A stretch of 64,000 nucleotides of DNA. Source: Vreelandella boliviensis LC1 (lineage in GTDB: Bacteria; Pseudomonadota; Gammaproteobacteria; Pseudomonadales; Halomonadaceae). The notes beneath the pieces were generated by a model. It ran no database searches, was not told where the DNA came from, and was given only the letters and a program-made list of their open reading frames with translations. The stretch is taken from contig NZ_JH393257.1 of assembly GCF_000236035.1 (NCBI RefSeq), positions 835,548 to 899,547 on the forward strand, read 5' to 3'. A program made the position numbers and the translations under genes. Of this stretch, positions 12,134-46,206 are shown piece after piece. How positions within the stretch are numbered: the first letter of the stretch is position 1; each line of letters begins with the position of its first letter.

Positions 12134-13893
<1,760 letters not shown>

Positions 13894-39655: not shown

Positions 39656-40318
39656 TTAATGACGGTTGGAAATATCCTGATCTGCCGCCGCCTTTAGTGC
39701 TCTAACCCGCGCTTCGAGAAACCGCCGCAGCGCTATATCATCGGCGTCCAGGCGGTTGAGCGGTGGTCCAAAGTGCAGGCTCACCGGCGCTCGAAAGCGC
39801 TTAGGGCACTTCTTTAGCGCCTTGCCATCATGGTTGGATGTCCACGATCCCCACAAGCCTGCCAGCCCTGCCGGAATCACCGGCACATCGTCGCGAGCGA
39901 GAATAGCCTCTAAGCCGCGCCGAAAGGCGTGAATCTCGCCATCAGGGGTCAATCGTCCTTCAGGAAAGACCATCACAACCTGCCCCTGGCGCAGCGCTGC
40001 GCTCACGTCATCCAGGGCGCGCCTAAGGGCGCCGGGGCTGCGTCGTTCAGACTCAATGGGGATGGCGCCAACCAGTTGAAACCACCACTTAAGCCAGGGC
40101 GAGTCAAAAATCGGCTGGTCCATGACAAAACGCAACGGCCGGGGGCTAGCACCACCGAGCACCAAGGCATCCATAAAACTGACGTGGTTACACACCACCA
40201 GCGCGGCTCCCTGCTTGGGGATATGCTCACGCCCATGCACCTGCAGCCGGTAGCAGAGGCGCATTGAGATAAAAATTATCCAGCGCAGCACCTGGCGCGC
40301 CGCAGTGACTCCAGTCAC
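39656..40318 (-). CDS. 1-acyl-sn-glycerol-3-phosphate acyltransferase (PlsC family)
   Basis: A 220-residue lysophospholipid acyltransferase. The catalytic NHVSFMDAL (HxxxxD, about residues 45-50) and the FPEGRLTPDGE motif are intact, with an N-terminal hydrophobic segment anchoring it to the inner membrane. It acylates lysophosphatidate or a related acceptor; which one is inference. Its start overlaps the TetR gene stop by 4 bp, so a dedicated regulator is likely. Confidence 0.9.
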   Translation of the reverse strand: MTGVTAARQVLRWIIFISMRLCYRLQVHGREHIPKQGAALVVCNHVSFMDALVLGGASPRPLRFVMDQPIFDSPWLKWWFQLVGAIPIESERRSPGALRRALDDVSAALRQGQVVMVFPEGRLTPDGEIHAFRRGLEAILARDDVPVIPAGLAGLWGSWTSNHDGKALKKCPKRFRAPVSLHFGPPLNRLDADDIALRRFLEARVRALKAAADQDISNRH

Positions 40319-40929
40319 GTCGCCGCCTCGCGATGGCGCAAGCCGGCCAGAATGGTGCTCATCAGCTGATCCAGCAGTTCATCCACTTTCAACTGCTGGC
40401 CCTGCCAGTAGCCCAAACGCTCATTCAGCCCAAGCTGGACTAGCCCGTGAACGCTCCCCCACAGCGTGCGCCCCAAACGGCGTGCTTCAAGATCACCCAG
40501 CGCCGGCTGGTAGGATTTAAGCGACGCTTCCACTTGGGTAAACAGCGCTTCGATTAAATCGCTTTGGCGCTGATCAAGCTCACCCTCTTGGGCCAGCGGG
40601 TAATCAAATAGCAGATGCCAGCGGTAACAATCCTGCTCGGCGAACCGCCAGTAGGCAAGCGCCAGAGCGCGCAGCCAGGGCTCGGGGTCATCGTCGCTCA
40701 GGCTGGTAATGGTGTGCTGTAAGCGCGCCAAAGTTTCCACATTGACGTGCTGCAATAAGTTATTGAAGCTGCCATATAGCTTCAGTAGGGTGCTGGGAGC
40801 GCAGCCGACCTCTCTGGCCAGGGCACGCAGTGAGAGCCCATGGACTGGCTGCTCAGCCAACCACTCATCACAAGCGTGCATGACCTGCGCGTGAAGGGCA
40901 TCGGGCGCATGCTGTCTAGGACGGGCCAT
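40315..40929 (-). CDS. TetR/AcrR-family regulator
   Basis: A 204-residue repressor with an N-terminal helix-turn-helix (LSLRALAREVGCAPSTLLKLYGSFNNLL, about residues 33-60) and a C-terminal ligand-binding helix bundle. It overlaps the acyltransferase gene downstream, so it probably controls a lipid-related process. Ligand and operator unknown. Confidence 0.88.
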   Translation of the reverse strand: MARPRQHAPDALHAQVMHACDEWLAEQPVHGLSLRALAREVGCAPSTLLKLYGSFNNLLQHVNVETLARLQHTITSLSDDDPEPWLRALALAYWRFAEQDCYRWHLLFDYPLAQEGELDQRQSDLIEALFTQVEASLKSYQPALGDLEARRLGRTLWGSVHGLVQLGLNERLGYWQGQQLKVDELLDQLMSTILAGLRHREAAT

Positions 40930-41119
40930 GGCGATCTCTTAAGGTCAACGGCAAACAAGGAGGAAGCCTCACTGCGCTTTAGCGGGAGCAAGGGATACGA
41001 TAGGATACCTTACATCGAACACTGTTTTCGACACTAAAACGCTACATTTCGTGCTTTATTACACGAGTCCCCCGCCATCCAGGTACACTTCCACGACGAT
41101 TCTGCTTAAGGAGATAGCT

Positions 41120-41797
41120 ATGACGGGGCGACTGCATGTGCAAAATTTACCGCTGACCCGCTTATTGCCGACGCTAGCCACTCCTGAACCGCTGGTGGAA
41201 TCGCCCAACCTAGCGCCTCGACGGCCAATCTCAGCGATTCGCTTAGAGCAGGGGCAGTACCGGCTCTCATCGCTTTTCTGGGGCCTGACACCGCCCTGGC
41301 TAGAGGTACTGGATCACGCCCCCCACTGCGCTCGGGCGGAAACCCTTGAATCACGTGCGATGTTTCGCGATGCCTTTAGCGCGCGCCGCTGTGTTATTCC
41401 GGTGAGCGGTTTCTATGTATGGAAAACCCAGCCGCGCAGCAAGCAGCCCTATTTAGTGACACAAGTATCTCGAGCGCCGCTGCTGTTAGGCGCACTATGG
41501 TGCCGCTACCACACCACGTTAACGGCGTTCACCGATTCTGCTGCCCTGATCACCGTGCCCGCCAATCTGCTGTTATCGCCGTTAACCGACCGCCTGCCGG
41601 TCACTATACCCAGCCATGCACTATCCGCCTGGCTCAATCCAGATACCGATGCCGAAACGCTTAATTCGCTGTTAGCGCCCGCTCCGTTGGAACTGTTGGG
41701 CGCTTTTCCGGTATCTAAACATGTCAATAATCCCGCCTACCAGTCATCGGCCTGTGCCCACCCCACCGGGTCGATGCTGCGCTGGGCTGTGTCATAG
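41120..41797 (+). CDS. SRAP-fold (YedK/HMCES-like) protein lacking all catalytic residues
   Basis: 225 residues with the SRAP fold that, in YedK and HMCES, crosslinks abasic sites in ssDNA. The start is certain: AAGGAG precedes MTGRLHVQ. The fold-typical segments are in order: NLAPRRP, FWGLTPPW, ARAETL, FSARRCVIPVSGFYVWK, TDRLPVTI and FPVSKHVNNP. Yet Cys2 (MCGR) is Thr2 (MTGR), the Glu of GFYEW is Val100, the His of IHDRRP is Thr156 and the Asn of NARVET is Cys70. Arg72 stays. Crosslinking by the known mechanism is therefore impossible; it may be a DNA-binding pseudoenzyme. Nine bp later the protease gene starts. Confidence 0.88.
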   Translation: MTGRLHVQNLPLTRLLPTLATPEPLVESPNLAPRRPISAIRLEQGQYRLSSLFWGLTPPWLEVLDHAPHCARAETLESRAMFRDAFSARRCVIPVSGFYVWKTQPRSKQPYLVTQVSRAPLLLGALWCRYHTTLTAFTDSAALITVPANLLLSPLTDRLPVTIPSHALSAWLNPDTDAETLNSLLAPAPLELLGAFPVSKHVNNPAYQSSACAHPTGSMLRWAVS

Positions 41798-41805
41798 GAG
41801 CTGTA

Positions 41806-44673
41806 ATGTTGCGATCCTCGTGTTTAACCCGCTGGCGTGTTTTTCCCCAGTGCGTGCTGATTGGCGTTATCGCCAGCATCGCGTTAACGCCGCTGGCCTT
41901 TGCGGCCACCGATGACGCCGTTGCCGATGCCATCGCTGAGACTGTCACCCCGATCATTAGTCCTTATGACAGCCGCGACTACCGCGTTTTGACGCTTGAA
42001 AATGGCCTCAATGTGTTGCTGGTCAGTGACCCGGAAGCTGATAAGGCAGCGGCGTCGATGAATGTGCGGGTAGGCAGCGCCCAAGATCCCGATGACCTTC
42101 AGGGGTTAGCTCACTTTCTCGAGCATATGCTGTTTTTAGGAACCGAACCCTACCCCGAGCCAGATGCCTACCAGCGCTATATTTCCAATAACGCTGGCTC
42201 TCACAATGCCTTCACGGCGCAGCAGGATACCAATTACTTTTTCGATATTGAGCCATCGGCACTGCCGGGTGCGCTTGACCGTTTCAGCGAGTTCTTCCTC
42301 TCGCCGTTGTTCAATGCGGATCACCTGGAGAGCGAGCGCAATATCGTTCACTCGGAGTATATGGCGCGTATTCGTGATGAATCTCGGCGCGAAAACGATG
42401 TGCTCAACCAGCTGCTCAATCTTGACAATCCCACCACCGGCTTTGCCGTGGGTAGCCGGGATACATTAGCCAGCCCGCCGGAAGGCGAAGCAACGCTTCG
42501 CGAGCGGGTCATCGATTTTTATCACCAGCATTACGACGCCAATGTGATGAACTTGGCCATTGTAGCGCCACAGCCGCTCGATACGCTGGAAGAGTGGGTA
42601 GCCGAACGCTTTGCCGACATTCCTGACAACGACCTAAGCGTGCCCACCATTGATGTACCGTTAGTGGAGGGTGGCACTCTACCCCGCTATATCGAACGCC
42701 AATCGCTGCAGGATCGTCGTCAATTACGCTTCTACTTTCCGGTGCCCGACCCCACCGATGACTACCGTAGCAAGCCAACACAGCTTATCGCCCACCTGCT
42801 CGGTGACGAGGGTGATGGCAGCCTGTTAGCGGTGCTGCGCGATGCCGGACTGGCCGACGGGCTTTCCGCCGGAGTGGGGCGCGGCGATGGCAACGAAGCG
42901 CTATTCACTATTTCCATAAGCCTAACGCCCGCTGGCGCCGAGCGTTTGGATGATATTGAAGCGACCCTGTTTGCCGCCATTGAGCAACTGCGCAACGACG
43001 ACCTCGCCGAATGGCGCTATGACGAGCAGGCAAAACTCAATGAGCAGGCCTTCCGCTTCCAGCAGCATGGCGCCCCGCAGCAGGAAGCCACTCGCCTTTC
43101 TATGAACCTATCGCGCTACCCGGTAGAAGACGTGCAGTATGCGGCCTATCGTATGGATGGCCCCGATGCAGCGCGCCAGCAGGCTTATCTTGACGCGTTA
43201 ACGCCGGATAACATGCTGCGCTTCTATTCAGCGCCGGATATCGAAAGCGACACCGCCTCACCGTGGTTCAATACCCAATGGGAAGAGCAAGTGCCCGAAC
43301 AGCCGGGCCAGGCTCTGAGCGGTTTGGCTCTCCCCGAGCCCAACCCCTTTATCGCCAGCGACCTGACGCTGCTGGAAGGCCAAGATGAGCACCCCAGCCT
43401 GCTGGTCGATACGCCATCGTTTACCGCTTGGCACATGCAAGATGAACGCTTTACGACCCCAAGCGTTGAGTGGCGTGTCAGCCTACAGAATCCCACTGCC
43501 AGCTACTCCGCCCAGGAAGCAGTGCTCACTCGGTTGCTCGCCAGTTGGCTCAACGACAGCTTGAATGAGTCTCTCTACCCAGCGTGGCTGGCAGGGCAAT
43601 CGTTTAGCGCCTACCCCCACGCCAGGGGCATGACGCTGTCTTTCTCAGGCTGGCGTGATGGTCAAACCCCGCTGATTGAACAAGCGCTTGAACAATTAGC
43701 GCACGCAGAGATCTCCGGCAGTGCTTTCGAGCGGGTGCGTTATCAGTTGCAGCGCGAGTGGCGCAACGCGCCCCAGGCCTCTCTCTACGGTCAAGCCAGC
43801 CGCACATTAGGCGAAGCCCTCCTCACACCACAGTGGTCTACCGCTGAGCTTCTCGCCGCCAGCGAGCGCTTTGACCGCGGGCACCTGGAAGATTTTCGCC
43901 AACGCTTTCTAGATGACATGTACGTCGATGCTATGGCGGTGGGGAACCTCAACGCCGAGCAGGCGCGACAACAGACACAGCTGATGCGTGCCAAGCTCCA
44001 GCCGAGGCTGACTCGCGACGATATTGCCAACCTAACCCCGCTTGCTGCTAGTGAAGAGCACAGCGTGCTGCATCCTCACAGCTCTCGGGATGAGTCATTG
44101 GTACTGCGCTATCTGCAAGGCCGCGACCAGACGCCAGAGGAGCAAGCCACCACCGCCGTGATCGCCCAGTGGCTGGAAACGCCGTTTTACCAGCAGCTGC
44201 GCACCGAACAGCAGCTCGGCTACATCGTTAACGCGGGCTATTCGCCGCTGCTCGAAGCGCCAGGGATTGCACTCATGGTGCAATCCCCCGACGTAGACAG
44301 CGGCACCATTGCCGAGCGGATGGATGCGTTTCTTGACGAGGCTAACCAGCGTCTTGAACAACTTAACGACGATGACTTAGCGCCCTATCGCCAAGCGGTT
44401 CACGACCAGTTGCGCCAGCGAGACACCAGCCTTGCGGGCATGGCCAACCGCTACTGGCAGGCAACAGCGCTGGAGAAAGTGCACTTTGATCGCCGCGACC
44501 AACTGGCCGAGTTAGTGCTGGACGTTAGCCTTGAGGATATTAAGGCGTTGTGGCCATCGCTGCGCGAGCACACCCTGGACATACGCTTTAATCCTGGCGA
44601 CGAACCCAGTGATGTAAGCGATTATCGTAAAGCGCGCTCGCCCGTGCCCAAAGTGCGTGATGAAAGTGCGTAA
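41806..44673 (+). CDS. Insulinase/pitrilysin-family zinc protease
   Basis: A large M16 metallopeptidase, 955 residues, like pitrilysin (PtrA) of E. coli, cutting peptides in the periplasm. A signal peptide is visible (VFPQCVLIGVIASIALTPLAFA). The inverted zinc motif HFLEH (LAHFLEHMLFLGTEPYPEPDAY) is about residue 105, with the distal Glu in the helix ERNIVHSEYMARI. Four homologous domains of about 230 residues follow, the later ones inactive, as in the family. It is 9 bp after the SRAP-like gene, so the two are cotranscribed. Confidence 0.93.
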   Translation: MLRSSCLTRWRVFPQCVLIGVIASIALTPLAFAATDDAVADAIAETVTPIISPYDSRDYRVLTLENGLNVLLVSDPEADKAAASMNVRVGSAQDPDDLQGLAHFLEHMLFLGTEPYPEPDAYQRYISNNAGSHNAFTAQQDTNYFFDIEPSALPGALDRFSEFFLSPLFNADHLESERNIVHSEYMARIRDESRRENDVLNQLLNLDNPTTGFAVGSRDTLASPPEGEATLRERVIDFYHQHYDANVMNLAIVAPQPLDTLEEWVAERFADIPDNDLSVPTIDVPLVEGGTLPRYIERQSLQDRRQLRFYFPVPDPTDDYRSKPTQLIAHLLGDEGDGSLLAVLRDAGLADGLSAGVGRGDGNEALFTISISLTPAGAERLDDIEATLFAAIEQLRNDDLAEWRYDEQAKLNEQAFRFQQHGAPQQEATRLSMNLSRYPVEDVQYAAYRMDGPDAARQQAYLDALTPDNMLRFYSAPDIESDTASPWFNTQWEEQVPEQPGQALSGLALPEPNPFIASDLTLLEGQDEHPSLLVDTPSFTAWHMQDERFTTPSVEWRVSLQNPTASYSAQEAVLTRLLASWLNDSLNESLYPAWLAGQSFSAYPHARGMTLSFSGWRDGQTPLIEQALEQLAHAEISGSAFERVRYQLQREWRNAPQASLYGQASRTLGEALLTPQWSTAELLAASERFDRGHLEDFRQRFLDDMYVDAMAVGNLNAEQARQQTQLMRAKLQPRLTRDDIANLTPLAASEEHSVLHPHSSRDESLVLRYLQGRDQTPEEQATTAVIAQWLETPFYQQLRTEQQLGYIVNAGYSPLLEAPGIALMVQSPDVDSGTIAERMDAFLDEANQRLEQLNDDDLAPYRQAVHDQLRQRDTSLAGMANRYWQATALEKVHFDRRDQLAELVLDVSLEDIKALWPSLREHTLDIRFNPGDEPSDVSDYRKARSPVPKVRDESA

Positions 44674-44707: not shown

Positions 44708-44736
44708 CCGGCTCAGGCGTCGAATGCCTGAGCCGG
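44708..44736 (-). terminator. Hairpin terminator overlapping the end of sbcB
   Basis: CCGGCTCAGGC (11 bp) and GCCTGAGCCGG form a perfect stem that spans the sbcB stop codon. No strong T-run follows on the minus strand, so it may be a 3' stabiliser as much as a terminator. Confidence 0.5.
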
Positions 44737-46206
44737 CATCATGGCTTCCACGAACATCACCAGCTCTTCGAGAATCTGGCGCTCACGATCAGTGAGTGTT
44801 TGCTGATTGTACTGGGCAATTTCCCGCGCAAACGCCTTAAGCGTAAAGCCCGCCAAGGCCGGATCATTGATGCGCATCCAGCGAAACGCTTCCCACTGCT
44901 CGCGCTCTTCGCCTTCCAACGTGTCGGGGTAACTGCGCGCACGAAAGCGAAACAGCATCTCTTCCAAGCGCGGATCCTGAAACGCGAAGCGCTGCCCTAC
45001 CAAATCCCACGGCTCCATCTCTCGAACCCGCTCCATCTGCTGACGGTCGGCGGCGGAGAAAAAACTGCCCGAGTAGAGCATTAAATCCGGGTCTTGCGGC
45101 GCATCGTCGTAACCTGCACTAAACACCTCTGCGACCTTAGCGGCGACACCGTTGGCATCGCGCAGGGTTTTCCAGTGCTGCCGACAGGCCGCCACATCCA
45201 ATCCTAAGCGCGCAACGATAGTGCCATACTCACCCTGCTGGGGGCCCTCAACATCTTTCAAAGCACTGGCGGGAAACACCACCGGGCAACGGTTGATATG
45301 GATCACCTTCAGCGGAATACGCGCTTCGCCTTCGGTTAAATCCTGCTGGCTGACAAACACACGCTCGCGAATTTGCTCCGCCGACATGCCCAGCATATCG
45401 CTGGGATCAACGCTTAAATCATAAACGATAACCCCGTTGGGGTTTGTCGGATGCTCAGCCAGCGGCATAACTAACGCACTACAGCCCCGGCTGGCGGGGT
45501 AACGGCGGGAGATATGCAGCAGCGGTTTGGCGTTGGGTAAGTCGAGCTGCTTAGCCACCGCGCGCTTACCGCGCAGCCCGAGTAGATAGTCGAACAGCTT
45601 CGCATTGCGCGCCTTGAGCAAGCGGGCCAGCGCGATCGTAGCCCGCACATCGGCTACCGCATCGTGGGCGCCCTCATGGGCAATACCGTTCGCTGCGGTT
45701 AAGTGCTCAAGCTTGAAGCTGGGCGCGCCGTCTTCGCGCAGCGGCCACTCAATACCATCAGGACGCAGCGCATAAAAGGCGCGCACAATATCGATCAAAT
45801 CCCAGCGCGAATTGCCGTTTTGCCACTCGCGGGAATAAGGGTCGAGCAAATTGCGGTAAAACAGGTGACGGGAGACTTCGTCATCAAAGCGCAGGCTGTT
45901 ATAACCCACCACGCAGGTGCCTGGCTCACTCATATGACGCTGAATCTCGCCCGCGAACTCTGCTTCGGGAAGACCATGTCGTTGGGCTTTTTGCGGGGTA
46001 ATGCCGGTGATCAAACAGGCGGCAGGATGAGGCAGGTAATCATCGGCGGGTTTGCAGTAGAGCTCGATCGGCTCGCCAATCTCGTTCAGGTCAGCATCGG
46101 TGCGCAGAGCTGCGAACTGAGCGGGCCGATCGCGGCGCGGGTCCGCCCCAAAGGTTTCATAGTCATGCCAGAGGAAACTGACAGGGGCAGCATTGGGTGG
46201 CGCCAT
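44713..46206 (-). CDS. sbcB: Exodeoxyribonuclease I
   Basis: A 3'-5' ssDNA exonuclease, 497 residues. DEDD-fold motifs: FLWHDYETFGADPRRD (first Asp and Glu, about residues 13-16), then GYNSLRFDDEV and HDAVADVRATIALARLL. The C-terminal part is the SH3-like/helical DNA clamp. Convergent with the protease gene, separated by a hairpin. Confidence 0.96.
   Translation of the reverse strand: MAPPNAAPVSFLWHDYETFGADPRRDRPAQFAALRTDADLNEIGEPIELYCKPADDYLPHPAACLITGITPQKAQRHGLPEAEFAGEIQRHMSEPGTCVVGYNSLRFDDEVSRHLFYRNLLDPYSREWQNGNSRWDLIDIVRAFYALRPDGIEWPLREDGAPSFKLEHLTAANGIAHEGAHDAVADVRATIALARLLKARNAKLFDYLLGLRGKRAVAKQLDLPNAKPLLHISRRYPASRGCSALVMPLAEHPTNPNGVIVYDLSVDPSDMLGMSAEQIRERVFVSQQDLTEGEARIPLKVIHINRCPVVFPASALKDVEGPQQGEYGTIVARLGLDVAACRQHWKTLRDANGVAAKVAEVFSAGYDDAPQDPDLMLYSGSFFSAADRQQMERVREMEPWDLVGQRFAFQDPRLEEMLFRFRARSYPDTLEGEEREQWEAFRWMRINDPALAGFTLKAFAREIAQYNQQTLTDRERQILEELVMFVEAMMPAQAFDA

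Follow-up and report, generated by a model that had tools for sequence, protein, structure and literature searches.

Background

SRAP proteins are, to our knowledge, known for a single chemistry. The founding analysis of the family describes Cys2 as absolutely conserved in SRAP and suggests that two conserved arginines (R86 and R180 of 1zn6) might contact DNA (passages of PMC3765255). For Escherichia coli YedK, passages of PMC9436759 report that protein without the Cys2 thiol forms no stable crosslink, that the C2A mutant forms a Schiff base through the amine of Ala2 and cuts DNA at abasic (apurinic/apyrimidinic, AP) sites with a rate constant of 0.05, and that in C2A E105Q the lyase value falls to 0.002 (25-fold slower than C2A) with a trapped Schiff base value of 0.2 as against 1.7. 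The same passages give a mild effect for N75A and retained DNA binding for the blocked E105Q and H160Q proteins.

The protein considered here is encoded in a 64,000-nucleotide stretch of the genome of Vreelandella boliviensis LC1 (contig NZ_JH393257.1, positions 835,548 to 899,547), referred to below as the window, in which an open reading frame (ORF) at 41120-41797 on the plus strand specifies a SRAP protein of 225 residues that begins MTGR, where its Cys2-type relatives begin MCGR. This SRAP pseudoenzyme and its clade counterparts are abbreviated to SRAP*.

A SRAP protein without the catalytic residues

The Pfam SRAP profile (PF02586) matches the window protein with 143.4 bits and an E-value of 9e-42 (curated cut-off 27.1), which places it in the family, and its sequence matches in the PDB are SRAP entries with YedK foremost. 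The predicted structure has the SRAP fold and, when superposed as a preliminary description of this DNA had proposed, aligns with most YedK and HMCES chains from residue 2 on residue 2. In the alignment to the YedK chains (the 8d2m chain index being the published numbering minus one) Thr2 (codon at 41123..41125, plus strand like all those that follow) stands for Cys2, Cys70 (41327..41329) lies opposite Asn75, Val100 (41417..41419) opposite Glu105 and Thr156 (41585..41587) opposite His160. All four crosslinker residues are thus replaced, as that description had read from the letters, and an acid beside the N-terminal amine, a feature of N-terminal-amine AP lyases, is lacking (Val100) and present in some deep relatives. 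Its further statement that only Arg72 stays was too narrow, since Arg4, Asn30, Trp54, Trp60, Glu74, Arg90, Trp101, Arg158, Pro160 and Trp171 are present as well. Arg4 (41129..41131) occurs in every row of both sets compared. In the 71 core and 11 deep rows, Arg72 (41333..41335; Arg77 of YedK by alignment) occurs in 71/71 and 10/11 respectively and Arg158 (41591..41593) in every row. Judged from its sequence, the protein is SRAP by family and fold and, by each catalytic feature tested, no crosslinker of the YedK/HMCES type.

The ORF lies exactly where it had been placed, its frame is clean, and an AAGGAG ribosome site (41108..41113, plus strand) lies 6 nt upstream of the ATG. An alternative upstream GTG would give a protein of 248 residues; the start at 41120 is favoured by the ribosome site and by the MxGR start of the relatives, the clade as a whole beginning M[ATSP]GR.

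Distribution in the genus and family

The host assembly (4.2 Mb in 21 contigs, completeness estimate 100%) contains the window protein as its sole SRAP match. It is therefore not the paralogue it had been called, nor can it regulate a resident YedK, as had been suggested. A SRAP match was found in all 82 genomes of the genus and more than one in 24 of them, some of these being fragments; the extra copies that were read (L002-L017) start MCGR, which makes the Cys2 type an optional form there. Of the interpretation first offered, a SRAP-fold pseudoenzyme without decay stands, and the regulation of a catalytic YedK finds no support in this genome.

In a set of 121 sequences, made up of the query and the 120 homologues closest to it, residue 2 is Ala in 78, Thr in 43 and Cys in none, a distribution far beyond chance. 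Gly3 and Arg4 are invariant in this set, residue 100 is Val, Ala, Ile or Leu and never Glu, and residue 156 is Thr, Ser, Gly, Ala or Val and never His. When 250 family genomes were searched with the clade profile, 247 gave a hit, and none of their best E-values was weaker than 1.7e-47; the best-scoring Cys2-type match that was read, from outside the family, reached 4.4e-39 with the same profile. One scan supplied 54 named loci, 53 of them from the family and one (L085, Actinomyces) a Cys2-type SRAP. Cys2 was found in none of the 52 family loci that could be read (for L036 an upstream start was used here; it is MAGR in the alignment), and the 53rd, from Vreelandella azerica, is frameshifted. 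Relatives with MCGR at this locus, which had been named as the observation that would overturn the description, were likewise sought in the fetched deep genera and none appeared. A local mutation or sequencing error at residue 2 is rejected, the non-Cys state being clade-wide. The V. azerica frameshift (L082/L148, G008) is seen in one assembly and may represent decay or a sequencing error.

Single origin and probable order of loss

In a careful IQ-TREE analysis of 70 rows (a quick tree was also run) a branch supported at 99/97 separates the 35 clade rows from the others. Parsimony on this tree, with gapped rows excluded from the counts, requires two changes at Cys2 (one for the clade and one for the outside row L189), four at Asn75, two at the acid of position 105 and one at His160. 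By the family tree, the crosslinking cysteine was replaced in a common ancestor of the clade. L116 and L118, which are among the rows nearest the clade, combine Cys2 with Thr in place of the His and Asp in place of the Glu, and the likely order of loss is His first, Cys2 once next, and Glu and Asn after, an order that rests on few rows. Cys2-type SRAPs without His160, through Thr or a shortened segment, are represented by L116, L118, L185 and L119-L121, and L116, L118 and L185 carry Asp for Glu105.

The deep relatives of SRAP*, which also include Larsenimonas and Kushneria, differ in what they retain. Oceanospirillum has Thr2 or Pro2 and keeps Glu at the acid position (GYYEW), Marinospirillum has Ser2 with Val, Ile or Leu there, Terasakiispira Ser2 with Gln, Balneatrix Ala2 with Asp, and Pokkaliibacter Thr2 with Asp or Glu; in the core rows position 100 is Val, Ile, Ala or Leu, as against Glu or Asp in the Oceanospirillum, Balneatrix and Pokkaliibacter rows. 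Of the 99 genomes in the family of Balneatrix, 23 match the Balneatrix protein; two of these are of SRAP* type (Balneatrix itself and G541, whose SRAP* is nearly identical to a Pokkaliibacter protein) and the other 21 have Cys2. Over 215 proteins (the 120 closest, 3 and 90 new ones from protein searches, the query and P0123) residue 2 is Ala in 88, Thr in 54, Ser in 31, Cys in 24, Pro in 9, Arg in 2 and a gap in 7, the low-scoring non-Cys rows P0184, P0200, P0202 and P0216 being taken as outside the clade. P0200 and P0202 start MRGR; their other catalytic residues are unchanged or conservatively substituted, and the two may be real or artefacts.

In order genomes outside the family, SRAP was read in 39 of the 95 with a match (L226 and L228 lie outside the read set). 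One of these 39 belongs to the clade (Balneatrix) and two (G348 and G375) have a separate MTSR form; as only 39 of 95 were read, further branches lacking Cys2 may exist. The MTSR form (L224 and L225; order family f21, genus g92) keeps Glu and represents another loss of Cys2, independent of that in the clade. A further variant, L187 (G391), starts MCTR, with Cys2 present, Gly3 replaced and Gln for Glu105.

Selection, conserved columns and charge

Median dN/dS in 116 close pairs, which were picked on low SRAP dN, are non-independent and include repeat assemblies, was 0.092 for SRAP*, 0.098 for the M16 peptidase gene that follows it, 0.052 for PlsC, 0.041 for TetR and 0.047 for exonuclease I (ExoI). 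Such low values across relatives, a comparison that had been called for at the outset, argue against decay, and with the genome counts they indicate that SRAP* is kept by purifying selection as a near-core gene. Loss of the catalytic residues together with purifying selection marks, on sequence, a pseudoenzyme under selection.

Of 26 columns conserved in at least 85% of 73 Cys2-type rows, columns 2, 70, 100 and 156 are lost in the 71 core rows, column 163 has changed from Leu to Ile and the others are retained. The 86 non-Cys rows include three with no legible N-terminus there, namely L162 (MCGR in another reading), L173 (a fragment) and L187 (MCTR in another reading), together with the outside row L189 (MTSR); these four and L085 were excluded from the comparison of core and Cys2-type columns. 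New residues have also become fixed: Arg34, Arg79, Arg118 and His69 are each present in 71/71 core rows (and in 2, 0, 0 and 0 of the 11 deep rows), and Gln208 in 71/71 core, 9/11 deep and 0/73 Cys2-type rows. Median pI is 9.01 in core, 8.46 in deep and 6.11 in Cys2-type proteins (5.98 in the 17 that come from the same family).

Proposed function

On balance it seems likely, if at a modest level of confidence, that SRAP* binds single-stranded DNA (ssDNA), perhaps at abasic sites, without the covalent thiazolidine crosslink. What the analysis shows is that the catalytic residues are lost, that the fold is predicted to be SRAP, that the clade has a single origin on the tree, and that the gene is conserved and under purifying selection; the non-catalytic conserved columns are retained, the protein has become basic and the SRAP*-M16 gene order is conserved. 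In YedK, Arg4, Arg77, Trp106 and Arg162 presumably contact DNA, and Arg4, Arg72, Trp101 and Arg158 of SRAP* would still hold it. The added invariant basic residues Arg34, Arg79, Arg118 and Arg129 and the loss of the acid at position 100 would favour non-covalent binding, and bound SRAP* might then protect ssDNA or abasic DNA against lyases, nucleases or bypass. As the window protein combines losses studied in the YedK mutants, it should not crosslink and should hardly cut.

Besides the way in which the close pairs were picked, a number of points weigh against non-covalent DNA binding as the function of SRAP*. Over all 752 pairs with dS of 0.05-1 the medians are 0.281 for SRAP*, 0.309 for M16, 0.146 for TetR and 0.155 for ExoI, which leaves SRAP* close to M16 and above the other two. 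Arg34, Arg79 and Arg118 are core features and not clade-wide, and in Terasakiispira Pro replaces Arg72. Equally or more basic ORFs make up 15 of the 61 in the window, so that the charge of SRAP* is by itself only suggestive. The M16 partner points to nothing DNA-related, and no LexA-type box was found just upstream of SRAP*, nor any excess of them across the window. A match to SRAP* is absent from two 2.7-Mb family genomes and one draft, which indicates that the gene is dispensable; in one of the small genomes (G097, locus L229) TetR directly adjoins M16 and SRAP* has been lost cleanly.

The strongest of the rival explanations, which we nevertheless think unlikely, is that the loss of Cys2 turned the protein into an N-terminal-amine AP lyase or a reversible imine former. 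The amine of residue 2, freed by removal of Met, would react with the abasic site, either cutting the strand or holding the site and releasing it. T4 endonuclease V and Fpg use the amines of Thr and Pro as their nucleophiles. Residue 2 of the clade is only Ala, Thr, Ser or Pro, all of which would permit Met removal, and the acid survives in Oceanospirillum with Thr2 or Pro2 and, as Asp or Glu, in Balneatrix and Pokkaliibacter. YedK C2A offers a precedent, with its trapped rate of 1.7 and that of C2A E105Q still 0.2 (passages of PMC9436759). However, Val and Thr occupy the acid and His positions of the window protein, and the lyase of C2A E105Q is 25-fold below that of C2A; moreover, a small residue 2 may merely reflect packing.

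A historical variant of this idea is speculative and, in our judgement, improbable to much the same degree. Ancestral loss of Cys2 would have converted a suicide crosslinker into an amine AP lyase capable of turnover, and the Halomonas and Marinospirillum branches would then have lost the acid and become reversible, non-cutting holders. Oceanospirillum, Balneatrix and Pokkaliibacter still carry Thr, Pro or Ala at residue 2 together with Glu or Asp, the parts of an N-terminal-amine lyase. Were this correct, three modes of handling abasic sites would exist within one fold, ordered along one tree.

Gene neighbourhood and remaining explanations

SRAP* is followed on the same strand by a gene for a pitrilysin-like M16 metallopeptidase of 955 residues with an HFLEH motif and a signal-like N-terminus (41806..44673, plus strand). 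The pitrilysin model is the nearest to it, with a score under the cut-off (477 vs 765 bits). An AGGAG (41796..41800, plus strand) overlaps the stop codon of SRAP* 5 nt before the M16 start, from which coupled translation of the two genes seems likely. M16 comes after SRAP* in 53/53 named loci, and ExoI (sbcB-type, convergent at 44713..46206, minus strand) then follows in 49 of them. Three of the remaining loci (L040, L061 and L068) end at contig edges; the fourth, L038, does not. Both M16 and ExoI were found in 20/20 further loci, which partly overlap the 53 because L146-L148 are repeat assemblies of named loci. SRAP*-M16 was also seen in 14/14 genus and 19/19 family loci with short flanks, partly the same places, as well as in Balneatrix, and SRAP*-M16-ExoI in the Pokkaliibacter-like G541. 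The flanks of 60 other SRAP loci, mostly 1.5-3 kb long, contained no M16 match, and neither did those of 19 Cys2-type copies of the family (L129 is counted in both sets).

Thus the link to the peptidase, first noticed as cotranscription, holds as gene order as far as Balneatrix and the Pokkaliibacter-like genome. That SRAP* acts as partner or regulator of M16, or in its export or folding, without any role on DNA is nonetheless quite unlikely. The pairing is constant in all clade loci with searched flanks and missing from the searched flanks of other SRAP loci, and Gln208 and Leu64 are among the residues specific to the clade. Against this, the M16 product carries, by eye, a signal-like N-terminus and SRAP* none; the peptidase is thus probably periplasmic, which makes direct cooperation doubtful. 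M16 also occurs in order genomes without an adjoining SRAP* (27 of 28 chosen genomes have some M16 match), and in G097 it directly adjoins TetR. Furthermore, the whole neighbourhood is conserved, so the pairing could reflect a gene order inherited vertically.

A new active centre, with Cys70 as nucleophile aided by His69, is very unlikely: His69 occurs in 71/71 and Cys70 in 67/71 core rows, but some core rows have Asn, Ile or Val instead of Cys70, neither residue is found in the 11 deep rows, and residues 70-72 form a beta strand in the model, where neighbouring residues should face opposite ways. Least credible of all is a relic slowly drifting to loss, for which its absence from two small genomes and a draft, the frameshift in V. 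azerica and the stepwise residue loss on the tree could be cited, since a match in 247/250 genomes, low dN/dS, intact start and frame and new invariant residues stand against it. Decay of SRAP* is disfavoured on the first two of these grounds.

Upstream and divergent to SRAP* lie a TetR-type regulator (TetR_C_33; 40315..40929, minus strand), a neighbour conserved in the core genera, and a PlsC-like acyltransferase (39656..40318, minus strand). The two are found beside SRAP* in most core loci and could control the intergenic region shared with it. There is no sign of SOS control: in addition to the lack of an upstream LexA-type box, matches in the window with at most 3 mismatches number 8 against 11.35 expected. 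Elsewhere in the window, the FtsY-type signal recognition particle (SRP) receptor with SRP54 domains (12134-13893, minus strand) is very acidic, with a net charge of -106 (Lys/Arg minus Asp/Glu).

Comparison with known systems

No description of a Cys2-lacking SRAP clade was found among the open PMC matches listed, and other work may exist. A whole clade manages without Cys2 and retains a near-core gene, and in the genus the Cys2 form is the additional one, present in a minority of genomes; the database names "abasic site processing protein" and "SOS response-associated peptidase", which many of these proteins bear, are doubtful for this clade. The closest described systems differ from it in several respects. 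E. coli YedK shares the SRAP family and about 21% identity with the window protein, in which the four catalytic residues differ. The SRAP domain of human HMCES is the crosslinking eukaryotic form (passages of PMC9436759), and in SRAP* the crosslinking residues are gone. SRAP genes in general have SOS polymerase neighbourhoods (passages of PMC3765255), whereas the neighbour of SRAP* is M16. The Cys2-type accessory SRAPs of the same family (e.g. L004) belong to the same Pfam family and share genomes with SRAP* in a minority of species, but fall outside the clade on the tree, and MCGR, NAR, GWYEW and HDR are intact in most of them (L017 has HVAR). The clade supplies natural Ala, Thr, Ser and Pro variants at residue 2 with which DNA binding could be separated from crosslinking. 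Nearly the same changes as in nature were made in the C2A and C2A E105Q mutants of YedK, which like SRAP* have no thiol at residue 2 and, in the case of C2A E105Q, no acid at position 105 (passages of PMC9436759); compared with these laboratory mutants, the loss in the clade has been fixed over many genera and is accompanied by new invariant residues and a shift in charge.
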